Position numbers and translations under genes: made by a program. The notes beneath the pieces are model-generated. The model had not been told where the DNA came from and did not search any database. It saw only the letters and a list, made by a program, of their open reading frames with translations. From Geobacter sp. DSM 9736 (lineage in GTDB: Bacteria > Desulfobacterota > Desulfuromonadia > Geobacterales > Geobacteraceae): DNA of 64,000 nt. Where the stretch lies: positions 372,001 to 436,000 of the forward strand of contig NZ_LT896716.1 in the NCBI RefSeq assembly GCF_900187405.1. The letters are read 5' to 3'. Shown here in pieces: positions 4,328 to 13,089 of the stretch; the stretch's first letter is position 1; every line of letters starts with the position of its first letter.

Positions 4328-5494
4328 ATGAATATTCGATTCCTACTTAGTGTAATTATATCCCTCTCCCTTGCCACCATCTTCGGCTGCGGAGGCGGCG
4401 GGTCTTCCGGGGGGCCTTCGGCCACGGTGGTTTCCGGCACGGCGGCAAAAGGCCCCATCAACGGCGGCACCGTAAACATCTATGCCGTCCGCAGCGGCGC
4501 AGTCGACCGTTCGGCCCCGTTGGGTACCTTCACCCCGACTCCTGCCAGCGGCGTTTACTCCGTCAACATCGGGTCCTATACCGGCCCTGTCCTGATCGAA
4601 GTGACCGGCGGATCGTACACAGACGAGGCGACGGGTGCACAGCTCGACATCAGCGCGGTGCCGCTTCGCGCCTTCGTCGGCAGCGCTTCCGGAAACGTCT
4701 CCGCCTCCGTGACGGCGCTCACCGAGATTGCCGCAAAACGTGTCGTCGACTCGGGTGCCCCCATAACGCCTTCCCTTATAACGAGCACCAATTCCGATGT
4801 GGGAGCCACCTTCGGCGTAGCCGACATCATCGGGACGCAGCCTGTGGATGCGGCTGCGGCGGGGGCCAGTGGTGCTTCCCAGCCTCAGCAGGAGTACGGG
4901 ATGGCGCTGGCAGCCCTCTCTAAATACATGCAGCAGAACACCCGCACTCTCGGGCAGTCGGTTGCCGACTTTACAGCTCCCGCTACAGCTGACCTCCTGA
5001 GCAAGCTGAACACCGCTAGGACCGCCTTCATCGTCGACCCCGACAGGAACAGGACGGCCATAACCGGCAACAGGACCGCCACACGGGCCATACTGAAGCT
5101 GAGCACGGCGGGGGCGCTTACCGCCTCGAACAGTGTCGGCAGCGTGGAGGTAGTGATAAACCTTCCGCAGGGTGTGTCGATACCGCTTCAGGATGCCGGC
5201 ACAGGGGAAATTGCCACCTCCGCCCTGACGCTTTCCGGAGCCATTCCCTCCAACGCCACCATTCTCAGCGGGAAATTTACCCCCGCTACCCTGACTTCGC
5301 CGGCGACGATCATGCTCGTTCTCGCCAGCGTCTCCGGATTCCCGGTCGGGGAGTTCGTGACTGTGAACTGCGACGTCGCCACAGGAAGCGTCGTAACTCC
5401 GGCCCACTTCATTCTCACCGGTTTCCAGTCCACGGACATACTCGGCGCGGCCCTGACCGGTGTTACTCCCGCCCTTGCCGTAACCTTTCAGTGA
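4328..5494 (+). CDS. Surface lipoprotein, unknown function
   Basis: The 388-residue product begins with a lipoprotein signal and lipobox ATIFGC, with the modified Cys at 21 followed by a Gly-rich linker. The first part (about 33-135) looks like a carboxypeptidase-regulatory or Ig-like beta sandwich (SGTAAKGPINGGTVNIYAV start), a pattern common in Geobacter surface lipoproteins; the rest is Ala/Thr/Ser-rich without recognised motifs. The RBS AGAGGTG sits 6 bases before the ATG. It starts 25 bases after the preceding secreted-protein gene, so the two are probably one transcript, ending at tandem terminators at 5501-5562. It may be the membrane anchor for the neighbouring secreted proteins; this is inference. 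Confidence 0.83.
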   Translation: MNIRFLLSVIISLSLATIFGCGGGGSSGGPSATVVSGTAAKGPINGGTVNIYAVRSGAVDRSAPLGTFTPTPASGVYSVNIGSYTGPVLIEVTGGSYTDEATGAQLDISAVPLRAFVGSASGNVSASVTALTEIAAKRVVDSGAPITPSLITSTNSDVGATFGVADIIGTQPVDAAAAGASGASQPQQEYGMALAALSKYMQQNTRTLGQSVADFTAPATADLLSKLNTARTAFIVDPDRNRTAITGNRTATRAILKLSTAGALTASNSVGSVEVVINLPQGVSIPLQDAGTGEIATSALTLSGAIPSNATILSGKFTPATLTSPATIMLVLASVSGFPVGEFVTVNCDVATGSVVTPAHFILTGFQSTDILGAALTGVTPALAVTFQ

Positions 5495-5500
5495 TGTGAT

Positions 5501-5562
5501 GGGGGCTGAAAAAGCTCCCCTTTTTCCATAAGACGGGTGCTTCGCCGCACCCGTTTTCTTTT
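5501..5562 (+). terminator. Tandem Rho-independent terminators
   Basis: The first hairpin (GGGGGCT, loop, AGCTCCCC) is followed by TTTTT at 5521. The second is an 8-bp perfect stem ACGGGTGC/GCACCCGT at 5533-5554 followed by TTTCTTTT. Together they close the 2689-5494 transcript. The rest of the 347-base gap holds two copies of the GTTACA motif and the leader of the next gene. Confidence 0.82.
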
Positions 5563-5577
5563 GGGACACCTCAAGAC

Positions 5578-5591
5578 GTTACAGCCGTACA
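5578..5591 (+). promoter_or_regulatory. Candidate regulator site, copy 2 (GTTACAGCCGTACA)
   Basis: It matches the motif at 2536-2549 at 12 of 14 positions and lies 251 bases before the paralogous gene at 5842. A partial third copy lies at 5668-5678. A sequence resembling a -24 element (GGCACG at 5752-5757) is followed by a poor -12 element, so a sigma54 promoter here is only a possibility. Confidence 0.35.
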
Positions 5592-5841
5592 GAATTTTAC
5601 AGGTGACGAAAAGTGCAGTAAGAACGGCAACTTGTTAATGAGACCCGCTCTTTCCTCTCATGAATTTGTTACACCCGTCTCTCGGCCCACCTCACCTAAA
5701 GTAGTTTCCAAGTTATTGAATTAACGATCAGTTTCCGGCCAGAGAACCCTCGGCACGGAACGTGGAATACAGATATAAAACCGGTGCATTCGCTCCCGAG
5801 TCACTGCAGCGAGATTCGGTCACTACGGAGGTTGATACACA

Positions 5842-7824
5842 ATGGCTGAACTGACTAAAAAACTTCTCCTTGCCCTACTGATCGTAGCAGGGGGGGCTCA
5901 TGATGCCTTCGCGCTGCTGGGGGCGGTTTCCGGAAAGCCGACAGCCGGCACACCGAACCAGCTCACTGAAGTACTTCCGGGAGGAAATCCGGCAGATGTC
6001 GCCACGAGCCTGGCCCACGGCTTCCCCATCTGGTATCGCGACGAAAATGGCGTGAAGCTTGAACTCTGCCTGGACAAGCCGGCCGCGGGTGGTAACGGTA
6101 TTGTCATCCCATGCCTCACGGCGGAGCCATTCACCAACTTCCCGATTTCCTTCCCTGCAAACTTCGGCTCGGAAGCCTTCTGGTGGAACGCTACGGGGGT
6201 GGCGACCTTTACTAGCCTTGACAACGGTACCTCGGTTCCGGGAGGCGACATGCTCGTCGTCATGGCCCTGGAGGCCTCCTTCGGAAATCTGCTGGGGACC
6301 CCGGAAGAGAACCAGCAGGTCGCTTTCGGCCGCATAAGGCTGCGGGCCAACGTTCCGGTAGCAGGCACCTACCAACTTACCCATCCCTACGGCACCCGTG
6401 ATTTTGTAGTTCCGGGCGTGTCCGCAGGGCGGGAGATAAACCAGACCCAGGACCTGGGCATCATAAATCCCCTCGACTTTACGGTAGCCCTCTCCGACGG
6501 CCCCCCCCCACCGGCACCCCCCGCGCCGACTCCCCCTTCCACCGATGCGCAGGTCGTCAATGCGGACGGGCTCAGTGTCGGCCCCTTCCTGGTTCCCGCT
6601 GTGACTCCCTACAATCCGGTAACCCGTATCGGGGGTCCTTTGACTCTGGGGGGAGCGACCTATATCGGGGAACCGGGCGGGGCGGTGCATGTGGAGCAGG
6701 CACTTACCGCGGCTCCGGACGCGGCTCCTTTCGGGCATTCGGTTACACTCACGCTCCTCAATCCCCCCGCGGGCTTCGTACTGAACTCGGCCACCGGCAA
6801 CCAGACGGTCACCATCAGCAACTTTCAGGTGATGGGGAAGCGTTTCAACGACGGACCCAACCTTCGGCCCACCGCCCGGCCCGACTCGGCTACCACCGCA
6901 ATGAACCGCGCCGTCACCATCGATGCCGTGCTCAACGATCTCGATCCCGTCACCGGCGCCAACGTGCACGGAATCAACCGGCAAGCTCTGGGGCTCGTCG
7001 CCGCGGGGGGCGAAATCCTCCGCACCACTCCCGTCGCCACCGCCAACGGCGGAACCGTGCAGCGAACCACCAATCTGGTGACCGGCAAGGCAACCTTCAC
7101 CTACACGCCGGCTGCCGGTTTCACCGGGGAAGACAGCTTCAGCTACGTCGTGCAGGACACAGGCGGCCTGATCTCGGAGCCGGTGCAGGTAACCGTACTG
7201 GTGGAGAACCTCTCCGCCAGCAAGGCCGAATTCAGGCCGAGGACAGGTACCTGGAGGATAGAGGGGACGAGCTCCGATACAACCTCGAATCTCATCACCA
7301 TCCATGGCGGTCCGCGCGCCGTTCTCTCCGGGCCCACCGCGGCCGGAGGAGGGATAGGCCTGCGCGTCACCGATACCGAAATTGCATATCGCCTGACGGC
7401 GGAGCCGCTCCCTTCGACTGTGGCGAGCATCGATATCCGCCTCGACACCGCCGACGGTCCCGCAATCTTCAACCTCTATGACAGGGATTTCGACGGCGCG
7501 GTTACCTTTCCCCGGGAGGGGACCCTGACAACCTTCAACTTGCAGCCGCGCCCGAACGACGGTGTCAGCACCTTCTCCGATGCAGTGGCCAGGATACTGG
7601 CCGGAAGCGCCTTCCTGACCGTAAGGACAACCGCCCGCCCCACCGGCACCGGTGAGATGAGCGGAAGGATCAGCCGTCCCGTCATCGGTACGGCAGCCGT
7701 TAGGCCGGGAGGAAGATGGGCCTTCCGCGGCAAGTCCACCGCAAGCCCCGGCCCCTTCGCCTCGGTGAGCATTACGTCCTCCAACGGCATCAGCGCGCCC
7801 ACCCTGCCTGTGCGGATGCGGTAA
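5842..7824 (+). CDS. Secreted multidomain protein with cadherin-like module, paralogue of 2689-4302
   Basis: The 660-residue product has an N-terminal signal peptide (about 1-24). Residues about 50-330 match the paralogue upstream (GFPIWYRD, FWW, ALEASFGN, QVAFGRIRL, HPYG in the same order), interrupted by a Pro-rich linker near 215-230. Residues about 345-455 are a cadherin/VCBS-like module (the RPDSATT start and FTYTPAAGFTGEDSFSYV strands). The last 200 residues end in a segment that resembles the C-terminal tail of the next gene's copper oxidase (IGTAAV, GGRWAFRG, SVSITSSNG). GGAGG at 5827-5831 fits the ATG. It starts a second unit with the copper oxidases. Its function is unknown; it is probably an extracellular scaffold or partner of the oxidase. 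Confidence 0.85.
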   Translation: MAELTKKLLLALLIVAGGAHDAFALLGAVSGKPTAGTPNQLTEVLPGGNPADVATSLAHGFPIWYRDENGVKLELCLDKPAAGGNGIVIPCLTAEPFTNFPISFPANFGSEAFWWNATGVATFTSLDNGTSVPGGDMLVVMALEASFGNLLGTPEENQQVAFGRIRLRANVPVAGTYQLTHPYGTRDFVVPGVSAGREINQTQDLGIINPLDFTVALSDGPPPPAPPAPTPPSTDAQVVNADGLSVGPFLVPAVTPYNPVTRIGGPLTLGGATYIGEPGGAVHVEQALTAAPDAAPFGHSVTLTLLNPPAGFVLNSATGNQTVTISNFQVMGKRFNDGPNLRPTARPDSATTAMNRAVTIDAVLNDLDPVTGANVHGINRQALGLVAAGGEILRTTPVATANGGTVQRTTNLVTGKATFTYTPAAGFTGEDSFSYVVQDTGGLISEPVQVTVLVENLSASKAEFRPRTGTWRIEGTSSDTTSNLITIHGGPRAVLSGPTAAGGGIGLRVTDTEIAYRLTAEPLPSTVASIDIRLDTADGPAIFNLYDRDFDGAVTFPREGTLTTFNLQPRPNDGVSTFSDAVARILAGSAFLTVRTTARPTGTGEMSGRISRPVIGTAAVRPGGRWAFRGKSTASPGPFASVSITSSNGISAPTLPVRMR

Positions 7825-7862
7825 CGAAGCATAACCTGAAGAACGTCTTAAGGAGTCTGTTT

Positions 7863-9260
7863 ATGACAATGTCGCGACGTGATTTTCTGAAACTCAGCTC
7901 CGCCGGGCTTGCCGCCGTCGCCGTCGGAACCGCCGGCACACACTTTTTCTGGCGGGGTGGGGAAGCCATAGCCGCGGCGCCCATGGTGGACCTGGAGATA
8001 GTGGAGGCGTTTCATGAGATGACAGACAAGGTGCAGATTCCGGTCTGGGCCTTCAAGATGGCCGGAGACGTGCCGCGGGTTCCGGGTATGATGATTGCCG
8101 CCGTGGAGGGGGATGAGGTCGAGATCAGGGTGACCAACCGCCACAGCATAACCCATGGGTTCAGCATTCCCGGCGTAGTTACGGCCACCATCTCTCCCGG
8201 AGCAACCACGACCATCCGTTTCAACGCGCCCTCCGCCGGCACCTACCTCTATTTCGACCACCTCAACGCACCGGTGAACCGGGTAATGGGGCTGCACGGT
8301 GCTCTGGTCACCGTGCCGAGGATACCCTTTACACCTTATTCGCAGCCCACCAGCAACGTAACCAGGCTATTCCGTGATTTCGGTACGACGGACCATTTCC
8401 CCGGCAATCCCTGGGACCCGGCCCGATCCTGGATCTGGCTCGTCAACAGCTATGACCCGGTGAAGAACAATCTGGCATCTCTTTCGCCCAACCTCAGCGC
8501 TGCGGCGTTCACCGGCGGGTATGTTCCCCAATATTTCACCATCAGCGGGAAGAGCGGTTTCTTCGCGTCCCACGATCCTCACATTGCCGTCTCCGGCCAC
8601 ATCGGGCAGCCGGCAATCGTCCGCTGCCTCAATGCCGGATTGGTATGGCACTCCATGCACCTGCACGGAAACCATGTGTACGTCCTGACCGAGAGCAACT
8701 TCAGCGCCGGGACCCGTACTATCCAGCAGAACATAGTAGTTGTCGATGTGTGGAGCCTGCCGCCGATGATCGGGCGGGACGTGATCATTCCGTTCATCAA
8801 ACCCCCCGACATCCCCCAGGACACATGGACGAGGATGTTGGCCGGCGCAAGCGACGAGATATTCCCCCTCGACTTCCCCATGCACTGCCACGCAGAGCCG
8901 TCCCAGACTGCGGCCGGGGGGAACTATCCCAACGGGCTGCTGACACACTTCATGATCGAGGGACCCACCAATCCGGCAGATGCGGTGATTCAGGTGACCA
9001 AGGCGGAGCTGCGGCTGAAGTTCGGGAAGCTTTCTCTCAGGGGAGTCACATCCCTTCCCGCCGGCTCTACCCTCGAAATCCACGCGGGTTCTACCATAGC
9101 TCCCCAGAGCCAGCCGGTGGGGACGGCCATAGTTCAGGGTGGGGGAGCCTGGTCCTTCAGCGGCAGGGCACTTCGGGCTCTCGCCACTCGCTCGGTGAGC
9201 ATCACCGCCGCGAACGGAGGAGACCCGCAGCGGCTGGACATAAGGCCGACCATCAGGTGA
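7863..9260 (+). CDS. Tat-exported multicopper oxidase-like protein
   Basis: The 465-residue product starts at the ATG at 7863, chosen because AAGGAG lies at 7849-7854 and the N-terminus is a Tat signal (SRRDFLK at 4-10, hydrophobic core to about 38). It has two cupredoxin domains. In the first the usual His-X-His pairs are degraded (HSITH at 94-98; FDH at 131-133 where HCH is usual). In the second the HxxHxHG motif is intact (H263, H266, H268, plus H271), as is HCH at 341-343, but the third His expected four residues later is Ser and a His appears only at 362. Residues about 375-465 are an extra tail shared with the preceding secreted protein. It is probably periplasmic or extracellular. Confidence 0.88.
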   Translation: MTMSRRDFLKLSSAGLAAVAVGTAGTHFFWRGGEAIAAAPMVDLEIVEAFHEMTDKVQIPVWAFKMAGDVPRVPGMMIAAVEGDEVEIRVTNRHSITHGFSIPGVVTATISPGATTTIRFNAPSAGTYLYFDHLNAPVNRVMGLHGALVTVPRIPFTPYSQPTSNVTRLFRDFGTTDHFPGNPWDPARSWIWLVNSYDPVKNNLASLSPNLSAAAFTGGYVPQYFTISGKSGFFASHDPHIAVSGHIGQPAIVRCLNAGLVWHSMHLHGNHVYVLTESNFSAGTRTIQQNIVVVDVWSLPPMIGRDVIIPFIKPPDIPQDTWTRMLAGASDEIFPLDFPMHCHAEPSQTAAGGNYPNGLLTHFMIEGPTNPADAVIQVTKAELRLKFGKLSLRGVTSLPAGSTLEIHAGSTIAPQSQPVGTAIVQGGGAWSFSGRALRALATRSVSITAANGGDPQRLDIRPTIR

Positions 9261-9277
9261 GGGCACCTGTAGGTAGC

Positions 9278-9416
9278 AGGTTGTTGAAAAACAGCCATCT
9301 CGCCGCCGTCCTCGAAAGCCACCGTGTGCGGCGTAGCGCTGTTTATGCCCCAGAGGGTACTACGCCTCCGTGGGGCTTTCTGCGGGTGCGACGATCTGAC
9401 TATTTTTGAACAACCT
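9278..9416. repeat. Element A, copy 1 (139 bp, terminal inverted repeats)
   Basis: It is bounded by AGGTTGTTGAAAAACAG at the left and the reverse complement AGGTTGTTCAAAAATAG at the right (15 of 17 identical). The interior holds GGCGTAG-type hairpin arms with an 18-bp insert (TACCCTCTGGGGCATAAA on the minus strand). It lies 18 bases after the stop of the copper oxidase gene. A second copy of the same 139-bp length is at 18600-18738 and a longer inverted copy is at 14673-14862. No coding capacity is seen; it is MITE-like. Confidence 0.88.
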
Positions 9417-9448
9417 GAGTTTATAAACAGTCGTACGTAAAGGTTAAA

Positions 9449-9583
9449 GCGGCGACAGATTCGCGATGATTCCGTCGTCGGCGACCGATGGCCCGCAGGC
9501 GTAGTACCCACAGGGCATAAACAGTGCTACGTCGAGGAGCCTGAGTAGGAGCCGGCGGCGGAAGGGCGCGAATATGGCGCCGC
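9449..9583. repeat. Element B, copy 1 (135 bp, terminal inverted repeats)
   Basis: The left end GCGGCGACAGATTCGCG and the inverted right end GCGGCGCCATATTCGCG form imperfect terminal repeats. The interior aligns closely with the copy at 25499-25619. At its centre the GGCGTAG...GCTACG hairpin carries a 17-bp insert (TACCCACAGGGCATAAA) that copy 2 lacks and that element A shares. The right end is only 18 bases before the next start codon, so the AAGGAGAAGG ribosome-binding site of the next gene abuts the element. Confidence 0.85.
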
Positions 9584-9601
9584 TGAAAAGGAGAAGGAAT
9601 C

Positions 9602-10933
9602 ATGCCAGTAATACCGCGAGACATAGACCACCCTCTGAACGAGGCCAGCTACGACGAGATGATCCGCTTCTGGCAGCACGGCGTGGCCCAGCCGACCAGC
9701 GTTGCTCTTCTCGACCCGAACAACACGAAGGGGTTCGAGCCGCCGCCGAACCTGGCCGCCGGTCAGCCACCTTCTCCCAACGACCGCCGCCTCACCATGC
9801 TTAGCGCGAACTTCCGTAACAACGTCCTGGCTCCCATTCTCGACCCGGCCGCCCCGCTCCCTACGCCGGACAGCATCCCTACGCCGGCACGCACTTTCGA
9901 ACTGAGCAATGTTGCTGGGGGAGGAGTGCTTCCTGTCCCGTATCCCACCAAAGGAGGCGCCAACACCCTCGAAGTCTGGGGATTCAACGCAAGCGGTGGT
10001 GCCGGCGAGACATGGTTCCCCGGCACCACCATTCGCGTCAGGGAGGGAGAACTGGTCCACTCCTTCCTGGGCCCCAAGTTCGGCAGCCATACCATCCATC
10101 ATCACGGCGTCGAACCTACCCCCATGAACGACGGAGTCGGCCATGCCACCTTCCTGGTGGGAGAGGGGGGGTACACCTACCAATGGATTGCCCCGGAAGC
10201 CGGCACCTACTTCTATCACTGTCATAAAAACACGGTGCTCCACTTCGAGATGGGGATGTACGGCCTTCTCATTTCCGATCCCGATGTCCCCGGCGCCCCC
10301 TTCATCGACGGCGGCTCCGGCATGGTCTACCGCCGGGACAGCCTGAGGAGCTACCAGAGGGAGGTCTTCTGGGTGATCGATGATTTCGACAGCCGCTGGC
10401 ATGAAGATGTCATCGGCATGGGGCATAGTGTCGGCATCGGCACCGTTGGAAACGAGTTCCTCCCAATCGGAGGGGTCCCCGAGAACTCGACGGTCCAGCT
10501 CCACCGTTTCGACCCGGACTATTTCCTCGTCTCAGGCGTGATTGCCGATCCCCAGAGCCAGGCCGGCGGCCGCCAGAACGTGATCACGAATCCATCCGTA
10601 TCGCCGACCGCCCAGCGGGGGGAGACGCTCCTCTTCAGGGTCCTCAACGCCTCCTACACCTCGGTGACCATCAACTTTCCGGCGCACTTGAACCCGGAGG
10701 TGATCGCGATGGACGGCCGCACCTTGGGGCGGGCGCCCTTCGTCCAGTATTCGAACCCGTTCAGCATGTCGAGCATTGGGGGGCGGATGACCCTCTCCAC
10801 CGCCCAGCGCTGGGATCTGCTTCTAAACACGAACGTTCCGGCGGGGACATACTTCGTCGATATCGAATACCGGCACTGGGTAACTCAGGAACTGCTGCGG
10901 ACCATTTCCATCCCAGTAATCATCGTCAGCTGA
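9602..10933 (+). CDS. Multicopper oxidase-like protein without signal peptide
   Basis: The 443-residue product starts at an ATG preceded by AAGGAGAAGG. No Sec, Tat or lipoprotein signal is seen. A first cupredoxin domain has a dense copper motif HTIHHHG (H163, H166-H168) and YHCHKN followed by LHFEMGMYG (HCH at 206-208, H214, M217/M219), giving a plausible type 1 site plus trinuclear-centre ligands of the N-terminal type. The second cupredoxin domain (about 320-443) lacks His clusters. The upstream Tat protein instead keeps the C-terminal-type motifs (HxxHxHG and HCH). The two could assemble as a split oxidase with this subunit carried out by its Tat partner, or this could be a blue-copper electron carrier. 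Only the motifs are seen; the rest is inference. Confidence 0.85.
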   Translation: MPVIPRDIDHPLNEASYDEMIRFWQHGVAQPTSVALLDPNNTKGFEPPPNLAAGQPPSPNDRRLTMLSANFRNNVLAPILDPAAPLPTPDSIPTPARTFELSNVAGGGVLPVPYPTKGGANTLEVWGFNASGGAGETWFPGTTIRVREGELVHSFLGPKFGSHTIHHHGVEPTPMNDGVGHATFLVGEGGYTYQWIAPEAGTYFYHCHKNTVLHFEMGMYGLLISDPDVPGAPFIDGGSGMVYRRDSLRSYQREVFWVIDDFDSRWHEDVIGMGHSVGIGTVGNEFLPIGGVPENSTVQLHRFDPDYFLVSGVIADPQSQAGGRQNVITNPSVSPTAQRGETLLFRVLNASYTSVTINFPAHLNPEVIAMDGRTLGRAPFVQYSNPFSMSSIGGRMTLSTAQRWDLLLNTNVPAGTYFVDIEYRHWVTQELLRTISIPVIIVS

Positions 10934-10947
10934 ATGCGGGGTCTGTC

Positions 10948-13089
10948 ATGAAGTATCTGCAAACGAAAACAAGTTGGAGAAGTAGGGGAGGAGGGGGCAC
11001 CTTCCTGTCGGCCTGCCTCATGCTCCTCTGCCTGGCGGCTGACGCGATAGCCCCCTACGGTGCCGCTCTCGCAGCGACACCCGCGTCTCTCAGGGGAGTT
11101 CCGGTTCCCGAGCCGAGCGACCTTTCACTGTTCATTTCCAACCGCGAAGCGGCGGTCAGGCTGGGAAAGGCCCTTTTCTGGGACATGCAGGTAGGAAGCG
11201 ACGGGAAGACCTCCTGCGCCACGTGCCACTTTCATGCGGGCACCGACAGCCGCACCGGCAATTCCGTCAGCCCCGGTCTTCTCGGGGGGGACTCTGATTT
11301 CACGCTGGCGGTGAACGGCACACTCACCGCAGGGGATTTCCCGCTGACACGCCTTGCCGACCCCCACGACCGTTTTTCTGCCCGCACGCACACCAACGAC
11401 GTCGTCTCTTCCCAGGGAGTTCCCCTGACCGCTTTCCAGCCGGGACGGACGGGGACCGCCGTCGAGGCGGGGCGCGCGCTTCGCGACACCGTCTTTACCA
11501 AAAACGGCAGGAATGTACGCCGGGTCGAGCCCCGCAACACTCCATCGGTGATCAACGCCGTATTCAACTTCGCCAACTTCTGGGACGGCCGGGCCAATCA
11601 TTTCTTCAACGGCGTCAACCCCTTCGGCATCCAGGACGTGAGCGCCCGGATCTACGTCAGCAACAACGGGACGATCGAGCCGCTGGAGCTCAACAGGCTC
11701 ACCGATCCCGTCACCGGGGCCCGGGTCAACCTCCTCGACAATTCGAGCCTCGCCTCGCAGGCGGTGGGGCCGCCCCTCAGCGACATCGAGATGTCGTGGC
11801 GCGACCGGAGCTTCCCGGAGATCGGAAAGAAGCTTCTCTCCCTCCGCCCCCTGTCGGGGCAGGTCGTACACAGAAACGACAGCGTTCTCGGGTCCCTCTC
11901 GCGAAGCCCTCAACCCGGCCTAGCAACGACATATGCGGAGATGATCCGGGAGGCGTTCCCCGCCCGGTTCTGGGACAGCACACAAACGGTGCAGCTCCAG
12001 AAGTCGGCGGCGCGCAAGGTGCTCCCCAGCCGCCAGGAGCCGCGGACCTTCCTCCTCAATGGTGGGAAGGCTCTTCCGAAACGGGCCGCGGCGGCACTTC
12101 CCGGGACGACTTCATACACGCTGATGGAGGCAAATTTCGCCTTCTTCTTCGGCTTGGCGGTGCAGCTCTACGAGGCGACTCTGGTTTCGGACGACACCCC
12201 CTTCGACCGCTTCGTTTCGGGAGACCCCACCGCGCTGACTGCACGGCAGCAGCGGGGGATGAACCTCTTTTTCTCAGGCGCAGCCGGCTGCGCCGACTGC
12301 CACGTGGGGGCAGAGCTGACGGCGGCATCCATCACCAATGCTCGCAATGCGCTGGAGCCTGGGCTCATCGAGCTGATGGCGGTAGGTGACGGAGCGCTGG
12401 CCAACTATGACATCGGTTTCTACAACGTCGGCGTTACCCCCACCGGAGAAGATATCGGCCGGGGAGCAGACGACCCGTTCGGCTTCCCTCTGGCGTTCTC
12501 CAGGCAGAACTTTCTCCAGCCACCTCCGCCATTCACCTTCCCGAAGCCGGGGTGCGTCAATGACTTCATAGGAGACCCACCGAATATCTGCCCCCCCACA
12601 GCAGGGGAGGTCACCAGGGTGGCGGTCAACGGGGCATTCAAGACACCGGGACTTCGCAATGTGGAGCTCACCGGCCCCTACTTCCACAACGGCAGCCTTC
12701 TCACCCTCCGGCAGACAGTGGATTTCTACGTCAGGGGTGGGAACTTCCGTGAGGCGAACATCGCCAATATCGATCCGGTCATCACCGACATCAATGGTCT
12801 CAAGGGCGCCGGAAAGGAGGAGGACCGCGCCGCTCTCGTCGATTTCCTCCTGGCGCTGACCGACGAGCGGGTCCGATGGGAACGGGCTCCCTTCGATCAC
12901 CCTCAGCTTTTCGTACCGGATGGCCATTCGTCCAAGGTTAGCGGCGACCCGAGGCGCAAGAGGACGCTGGATGACAGGATGATGGAAATTCCCGCAGTAG
13001 GTGCGGCAGGAAGGCAGAGCCAGGGATTGCCCCCGTTGCGCCCCTTTCTCGACACAACCGGTGATCCGCAGTTTCACTACAGGAATTAA
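10948..13089 (+). CDS. MauG/cytochrome c peroxidase family dihaem protein
   Basis: The 713-residue product, much longer than ordinary dihaem peroxidases (about 330-350), has an N-terminal signal segment to about residue 46. Two c-type haem sites are visible: CATCH at about 90-94 and CADCH at about 448-452. Motifs typical of the CCP/MauG family are present, including GKALFWD before the first haem, RNTPSV and NFWDGRA, and the late segment FKTPGLRNVELTGPYFHNG. Wide spacing between the haems reflects large insertions. It starts 14 bases after the copper-oxidase-like gene, so it is co-transcribed. It probably reduces peroxide or performs long-range oxidation of a partner in the periplasm; the substrate is unknown. 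Confidence 0.9.
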   Translation: MKYLQTKTSWRSRGGGGTFLSACLMLLCLAADAIAPYGAALAATPASLRGVPVPEPSDLSLFISNREAAVRLGKALFWDMQVGSDGKTSCATCHFHAGTDSRTGNSVSPGLLGGDSDFTLAVNGTLTAGDFPLTRLADPHDRFSARTHTNDVVSSQGVPLTAFQPGRTGTAVEAGRALRDTVFTKNGRNVRRVEPRNTPSVINAVFNFANFWDGRANHFFNGVNPFGIQDVSARIYVSNNGTIEPLELNRLTDPVTGARVNLLDNSSLASQAVGPPLSDIEMSWRDRSFPEIGKKLLSLRPLSGQVVHRNDSVLGSLSRSPQPGLATTYAEMIREAFPARFWDSTQTVQLQKSAARKVLPSRQEPRTFLLNGGKALPKRAAAALPGTTSYTLMEANFAFFFGLAVQLYEATLVSDDTPFDRFVSGDPTALTARQQRGMNLFFSGAAGCADCHVGAELTAASITNARNALEPGLIELMAVGDGALANYDIGFYNVGVTPTGEDIGRGADDPFGFPLAFSRQNFLQPPPPFTFPKPGCVNDFIGDPPNICPPTAGEVTRVAVNGAFKTPGLRNVELTGPYFHNGSLLTLRQTVDFYVRGGNFREANIANIDPVITDINGLKGAGKEEDRAALVDFLLALTDERVRWERAPFDHPQLFVPDGHSSKVSGDPRRKRTLDDRMMEIPAVGAAGRQSQGLPPLRPFLDTTGDPQFHYRN

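Follow-up and report, generated by a model that had tools for sequence, protein, structure and literature searches.

Two adjacent multicopper oxidase-like genes of Geobacter sp. DSM 9736 as candidate subunits of one heteromeric, Tat-exported oxidase

The window analysed here is a stretch of 64,000 nucleotides from Geobacter sp. DSM 9736 (contig NZ_LT896716.1, positions 372,001 to 436,000), in which two neighbouring genes on the same strand encode copper-oxidase-like proteins, termed A and B below. An initial annotation, made from the sequence alone, had placed these genes at 7863-9260 and 9602-10933 and proposed that their complementary ligand sets could make up one active centre. Both open reading frames are present at these coordinates, free of internal stops and each with a ribosome site. 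In public annotation A is a hypothetical protein and B a multicopper oxidase domain-containing protein. Table 1 presents the positions of the main features discussed.

Table 1. Features of the A-B locus and its surroundings, with related genes elsewhere in the genome (aa, amino acids; Tat, twin-arginine translocation)
Feature	Position	Strand	Remarks
Protein A, 465 aa	7863..9260	+	Tat signal, degenerate cupredoxin domain 1, domain 2 with putative half trinuclear site, extra C-terminal domain
Tat signal peptide of A (SRRDFLK, residues ~1-38)	7863..7976	+	PF10518
A H263-H271, HSMHLHGNH	8649..8675	+	H266, H268 presumed trinuclear ligands, 76/76
A M340-E345, MHCHAE	8880..8897	+	H341, H343 presumed trinuclear ligands; C342 optional type 1 ligand; E345 invariant
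A C-terminal domain	8985..9257	+	Present at 7/86 loci; resembles C-terminus of the upstream 660-aa protein
Protein B, 443 aa	9602..10933	+	No signal; cupredoxin domain 1 with putative type 1 site and half trinuclear site; domain 2 ligand-free
B H163-G169, HTIHHHG	10088..10108	+	H163 presumed type 1 ligand; H166, H168 presumed trinuclear ligands; 81/81, motif partly search seed
B H206-M219, HCHKNTVLHFEMGM	10217..10258	+	H206, H208 presumed trinuclear ligands; C207, H214 and axial M219 presumed type 1 ligands
Interspersed repeat	9278..9583	.	Occupies the A-B gap, in this genome alone; no part of the enzyme; 88 genome matches, inverted arms
660-aa secreted-type protein	5842..7824	+	Upstream; N-terminal domain recurs at 12/86 loci; Big_9 match, CHRD below cut-off
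Di-haem MauG/cytochrome c peroxidase-like protein	10948..13089	+	Downstream; PF03150 79 bits; relatives at 14/86 loci
Three-gene cupredoxin cluster	L039 (G000:C1:3788000-3804000) 5289-9810	-	Same ligand division, with a ligand-free third protein

Inspection of protein A confirms the twin-arginine signal read in the initial annotation. The N-terminus is MTMSRRDFLKLSSAGLAAVAVG, and the Pfam Tat-signal model (PF10518) scores 23.6 bits against a cut-off of 22.7. Pfam also places Cu-oxidase_3 at residues 73-150 and Cu-oxidase_2 at 248-301. The motifs usual for a last oxidase domain, HSMHLHGNH and MHCHAE, are kept. The first-domain pairs are missing as had been described: S101/P103 and F131/H133 stand where the HxH pairs belong, and the first-domain copper set is therefore considered lost.

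Conservation was followed in relatives drawn from a single scan, with the B alignment as query, across 84,980 species genomes; it returned 500 relatives, the best 80 of which were kept. The alignment of A comprises 76 proteins (the window and 75 loci, omitting the broken A of L068 and four loci without A), and four of its rows lack an aligned domain 1, such that first-domain counts refer to 72 proteins; the alignment of B comprises 81. Exactly four of the 18 histidines of A, H266, H268, H341 and H343, are invariant. Because these sole invariant histidines are the four expected trinuclear ligands, the motif pattern of A goes beyond chance. E345 and Y355 are likewise present in 76/76. The type 1 cysteine of A (C342) is found in 40 of the 76 proteins and is otherwise L, D, S, G or F, and a complete H-C-H type 1 set occurs in 30. 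At two loci of a more distant A-B kind in genomes of the same order, this cysteine is replaced by aspartate (HDH) with both flanking histidines kept. Going by the titles of the sequence records, the two-gene form is distributed across Desulfuromonadales and other Deltaproteobacteria, Alpha- and Gammaproteobacteria, Nitrospirae, Planctomycetes, Chloroflexi, Actinobacteria, Armatimonadetes and Bacillus relatives.

Protein B retains the first-domain motifs attributed to it, HTIHHHG at 163-169 and HCH...H...M at 206-219. Its domain 1 is placed at 139-224 by Pfam, and domain 2 is recognised by fold in the model of a relative. Residues H163, H166, H168, H206, C207, H208 and H214 are present in 81/81 proteins, where the axial position 219 is occupied by M in 56 and by L in the other 25, and the whole predicted type 1 site of B lies in domain 1. 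In the last domain, the only columns with histidine in at least 30% of proteins are 267, 275 and 425, with no HxH pair among them; H267 is kept in 69/81 and H425 in 36/81. An HxH pair occurs somewhere past residue 240 in 11 of the 81 (two each in L058 and L065), and no place shared by these pairs is recognisable across the alignment. Three invariant residues beside the ligands, Glu345 and Tyr355 in A and Asp177 in B, may serve in proton delivery.

By the usual multicopper-oxidase assignment, which we adopt here, the trinuclear ligands would be H266, H268, H341 and H343 of A together with H166, H168, H206 and H208 of B, and the type 1 ligands of B would be H163, C207, H214 and M219. All eight trinuclear histidines, four in each protein, are kept in 76/76 aligned pairs. 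The first-domain four-histidine set without which A could not function by itself is found in 0/72 proteins, and no second ligand set was recognised in domain 2 of the 81 B proteins. Homologues carrying a complete set in each half, which the initial annotation had named as evidence against its proposal, were thus sought and not encountered. With the trinuclear and B type 1 ligands kept and the A type 1 position drifting, this tally suggests that evolution retains, for each pair, a single trinuclear set and a single type 1 site split over two chains. The type 1 copper common to all relatives would then be the predicted site in B, not that of A.

The two genes also travel together. A immediately precedes B, in the same orientation, at 76/76 loci with upstream sequence; at the remaining four of the 80 (L085, L101, L121 and L130) the contig ends before A could lie. 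Among the 76, the A reading frame is broken or fragmentary in L068, L070 and L074 and cut at a contig end in L069 and L094. Six further A-B loci were found in five of 58 same-order genomes (own included, B as query), always as A then B on one strand, with a twin-arginine leader on A and none on B. Across 297 sampled genomes of the phylum, with scoring limited to the five best A and three best B candidates of each genome, 16 A matches and 13 B matches exceed 300 bits, all in the same 9 genomes, and the next best fall to 68 bits for A and 84 bits for B. B adjoins 14 of the 16 strong A matches; the other two share a genome in which scoring covered no more than three B candidates. An extra B, split into two fragments of 167 and 128 bits, adjoins an A in one of the nine genomes. 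Five strong A matches in a single genome, G196, indicate that some bacteria keep several A-B pairs. Distances among A and among B proteins are correlated (r 0.77 over 76 pairs; highest of 1000 permutations, 0.08), a correlation that we do not use as evidence for contact because adjacent genes have a common history anyway.

A single fused homologue, which the initial annotation had suggested looking for, did not emerge: no fused A-B was found among the 80 loci, where A tails searched with the B profile gave no match. On an Arthrobacter plasmid outside the 80 (L213, 2538-4885), A overlaps the start of B in another frame, and the A tail resembles the first strands of B by eye, a likeness that the B profile did not detect. 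B relatives of 751-767 aa were considered as fusions on the length of their open frames and rejected, as alignment reveals B with a long C-terminal repeat tail beside a separate A. Also rejected was a single gene split by a frameshift artefact: the same arrangement of two genes, both with a start of their own, recurs at 76 loci in many lineages.

Export signals also divide between the partners. A leaders match RRx[FLMVI] in 68/72 proteins, and the other four carry RRDA, RRAA or RRDW, such that RR is present in 72/72. A stricter Tat pattern combined with a hydrophobic window is matched by 65/76 A proteins, the failures being four rows without a leader and seven with RR by eye. The reading of B as lacking an export signal also holds. 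The frame of B opens just five codons ahead of its ATG, which is preceded by AAAGGAGAAGGAATC, and the top 15-residue hydrophobic window in the first 60 residues has a mean of 0.52 in B versus 1.57 in A. Among the 81 B proteins, a hydrophobic stretch occurs somewhere in the leader in six, and a loose Tat pattern occurs in two, neither convincing (L093, which has an upstream start call, and L119, which has no hydrophobic stretch). The pair therefore displays what is expected of Tat hitchhikers, namely a twin-arginine signal on one partner, A, and none on the other, B. The signals, their conservation and the TatC gene encoded in the same genome together suggest that B rides through Tat with A.

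A joint structural model had been proposed as a check, and a confident one was obtained on fused relatives. A and B lie in one frame at 25 loci, and such natural A-B read-throughs, with the intervening stops read as glycine, were used as input for AlphaFold2. Model 1 (56 rows, L060 first) has a predicted local distance difference test (pLDDT) score of 89.0 and a predicted template-modelling (pTM) score of 0.91, with a disordered linker at 340-373. Model 2 (53 rows, headed by L055 of Pelotalea, the second-closest relative) has a pLDDT of 84.5 and a pTM of 0.87. Human ceruloplasmin comprises six domains, the first four of which are residues 1-697, and in it domain 2 of one pair and domain 1 of the next are positioned like the domains that hold the trinuclear site. 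Model 1 aligns with ceruloplasmin (4enz) at Z 23.6 over 515 residues (4.1 Å, identity 16%), with model residues 9-749 on ceruloplasmin chain 1-697. By this overlay, the predicted fold places A domain 2 and B domain 1 as expected for a trinuclear site. The SufI, nitrite-reductase and laccase rows of the fold search each span single halves.

These features bear on the class of enzyme to which the pair might belong. In two-domain multicopper oxidases (2dMCOs), described as trimers, the trinuclear site is formed where domain 2 of one chain faces domain 1 of its neighbour (PMC13151041). A and B each have two cupredoxin domains, and together they provide, at the level of sequence, the eight histidines from domains 1 and 2 of neighbouring chains (76/76 pairs). 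A single chain with both trinuclear halves was looked for and is absent, in A as in B, and the pair is therefore not filed as a 2dMCO member. Three-domain laccases have three domains in one chain and the type 1 site in the last, which differs from the two domains per chain and the invariant type 1 site in B domain 1 found here. Scores also fall below the cut-offs of the NirK model (NCBIfam TIGR02376; A 33.1, B 25.1 versus 296.3 bits) and the CopA/PcoA model (NCBIfam TIGR01480; A 32.4, B 34 versus 478.95 bits). The shared active centre of the initial annotation is supported by the search for full-set homologues and by the confident joint models, and its picture of a three-domain oxidase cut in two is not: two two-domain proteins with complementary losses support a heteromeric two-domain oxidase as the more fitting description. 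The reversed gene order, with the C-like half first, is then no puzzle, because the two-domain site as outlined in PMC13151041 joins domain 2 of one chain to domain 1 of the next.

The same ligand division recurs in a second gene arrangement. At 3.795 Mb of the same genome, three adjacent genes encode a B-like protein (HTVHWHG and YHCHVEATEHM), an A-like protein (HPLHTHGN and FMLHSH) and a protein of two-domain type that lacks these motifs. The order B, A, third is complete in 9 of 14 loci examined, and a tenth (L046) ends at a contig edge after A. Both B motifs are present in 10/10 B-like proteins and HPxHxHGN in 10/10 A-like proteins, where HSH was pattern-matched in 7/10. Every subunit of these three-gene kin bears a leader that resembles a general secretory (Sec) signal by eye. 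Cupriavidus metallidurans CH34 also carries a three-gene set.

From these observations, A and B would be two subunits of one heteromeric multicopper oxidase, in which A domain 2 and B domain 1 meet and between them supply all eight histidines of a single trinuclear copper cluster. A reduced substrate would deliver electrons to the type 1 copper in B domain 1, from which they would pass via the Cys-His bridge of B to the trinuclear cluster, where O2 would be reduced to water. A domain 1 and B domain 2, having lost their ligands, would serve as scaffold. Because A bears the only signal, A and B would bind in the cytoplasm, and B would cross the membrane with A via the Tat pore. The pair would most likely have arisen when a two-domain oxidase was duplicated and the copies then underwent complementary losses. 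As a guess, the substrate may be a metal ion, for instance Mn(II), Fe(II) or Cu(I). Next to the Arthrobacter pair of L213 are genes for an Nramp metal transporter and for a metal-dependent regulator, neighbours that hint at a metal substrate and no more.

We consider a trinuclear centre shared by A and B, together with their co-export through Tat, to be quite probable, and several observations count against it. The genome scan was seeded with two B motifs, so that conservation of H163-H168 and H206-C207 is partly built in; conservation of A and of H208 and H214 in B lies outside this seed effect. Both models are fused chains of relatives that are 47-61% alike to the window proteins and inform at the fold level, and chain fusion may favour contact between the halves. 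For model 2, ceruloplasmin is absent among the 50 VIA-align rows listed, and its Foldseek template-modelling score to ceruloplasmin is 0.45-0.46, with one row at 0.26. Regarding export, four Rhizobiales-like B proteins (L080, L089, L100 and L101) have an Ala-rich N-terminal stretch ending AQ, which may be an old signal, and the A protein of L213 lacks a Tat signal both as annotated and in the open frame upstream.

Some of this evidence would suit other explanations. The fold search with model 2 is headed by 3g5w (Z 28.3) and 2zwn (Z 27.9), both on the A half, and each chain alone resembles two-domain copper proteins, with PDB sequence matches headed by copper nitrite reductase (CuNiR) and two-domain laccases. 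Along with the histidines retained in B domain 2, such matches would fit A and B as independent homo-oligomers, B a nitrite-reductase-like or plain blue-copper trimer that relies on its own type 1 site and A a separate copper-binding protein. That arrangement appears decidedly unlikely in view of HxH pairs that are invariant in A and B though the partner pairs are missing from the other domain, scores far under the CuNiR cut-off, and strict A-B pairing and co-occurrence. B might instead be exported alone or remain cytoplasmic, with the Tat signal of A serving A only, as the signal-like Ala-rich stretches of four B proteins and the Sec-like leaders on all three-gene subunits could suggest. We judge this unlikely, given that window B leaves no room for a signal and that no convincing twin-arginine leader is found in 81 B proteins. 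SufI among the fold matches of model 1 and the loss of ligands in two of four domains are compatible with degenerate structural relatives of copper oxidases, SufI/FtsP-like and without a copper centre; we regard this as very improbable, for the ligand residues are the most conserved histidines of A and B across phyla. The composition of the working unit is a further matter. Instead of a 1:1 dimer, three two-domain chains might form a ring (A2B, AB2, or AB with another protein) on the pattern of two-domain oxidase trimers and six-domain ceruloplasmin, a possibility to be taken seriously, if not the one we would expect. The joint model spans four of the six ceruloplasmin domains, the three-gene kin include a third, ligand-free two-domain protein, and two-domain oxidases are portrayed as trimers with a site common to two protomers (PMC13151041). 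Against a ring, Pfam identifies no third cupredoxin gene among the tested proteins around the window.

The A-B gap (9261-9601) is 341 bases here and mostly <60 bases at other loci. The repeat that fills it consists of two inverted, related parts, an insertion between presumably co-dependent genes that left the pair unseparated. The likeness between the C-terminal domain of A and the C-terminus of the upstream protein perhaps reflects a common anchoring or sorting domain. The downstream MauG-like gene was considered as a fixed third part and rejected, since its relatives occur at 14/86 loci only. A gene of the SCO1/SenC copper-chaperone family, identified from one representative, forms a 12-locus neighbour cluster (80 loci plus window genes); it is likewise not obligatory, and its presence near the pair counts in favour of the proposed copper enzyme.

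If the proposed arrangement is correct, widespread genes annotated as unrelated oxidase-like or hypothetical proteins would be two halves of one enzyme, and A or B expressed alone would yield inactive protein. The pair would provide a trinuclear copper centre built between non-identical subunits and a copper-enzyme example of Tat co-export. It would also represent an intermediate from two-domain to long-chain oxidases such as ceruloplasmin, reached by duplication and then opposite-half loss. On balance, we lean towards the broader view that heteromeric multicopper oxidases constitute an unrecognised class, in which the trinuclear cluster comes from two separately encoded, complementarily degenerate proteins. 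Two arrangements would make up this class. In one, encoded by two genes and exported through Tat, the type 1 subunit has no signal of its own and rides with its partner; in the other, encoded by three genes and using Sec, three chains would rebuild a ceruloplasmin-like six-domain ring.

Searches of open-access papers brought up no two-subunit bacterial oxidase among the titles and abstracts listed, and no paper on a split multicopper oxidase. One survey of laccase-like genes is described as filtering on copper-binding regions (PMC3192119), a step that may explain why such pairs escaped it. In Sideroxydans lithotrophicus ES-1, Slit_1816-1818 are reported as two proteins with multicopper oxidase motifs and a larger third without, beside SCO1/SenC, and as more abundant on magnetite (PMC12016527). 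They resemble the three-gene kin in this description, which proposes no shared copper site, and the A-B pair of the window, unlike them, would be a distinct Tat-borne form. OmpB and MofA of Geobacter and Leptothrix (PMC5566968) are likewise multicopper proteins of metal-cycling bacteria, in clusters with SCO1 and cytochrome-type genes, and are set apart from A-B by their description as single large proteins. The Tat hitchhikers NxrA/NxrB (PMC3578206) parallel A-B in that one subunit has a twin-arginine signal and the other has none; unlike A-B, the hitchhikers named in that source are molybdopterin enzymes, with no copper oxidase among them. Like 2dMCO types A, B and C (2zwn, 3g5w and CjMCO), as far as these are described, A and B have two cupredoxin domains each and a putative site at the domain 1/domain 2 interface. 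In contrast to 2dMCO homotrimers, where every chain carries both halves, A and B hold the halves on two gene products, each having lost the other half. Finally, the overlay of model 1 on 4enz likens the pair to ceruloplasmin and the six-domain oxidases, where one long chain does what A and B would accomplish with two (or three).

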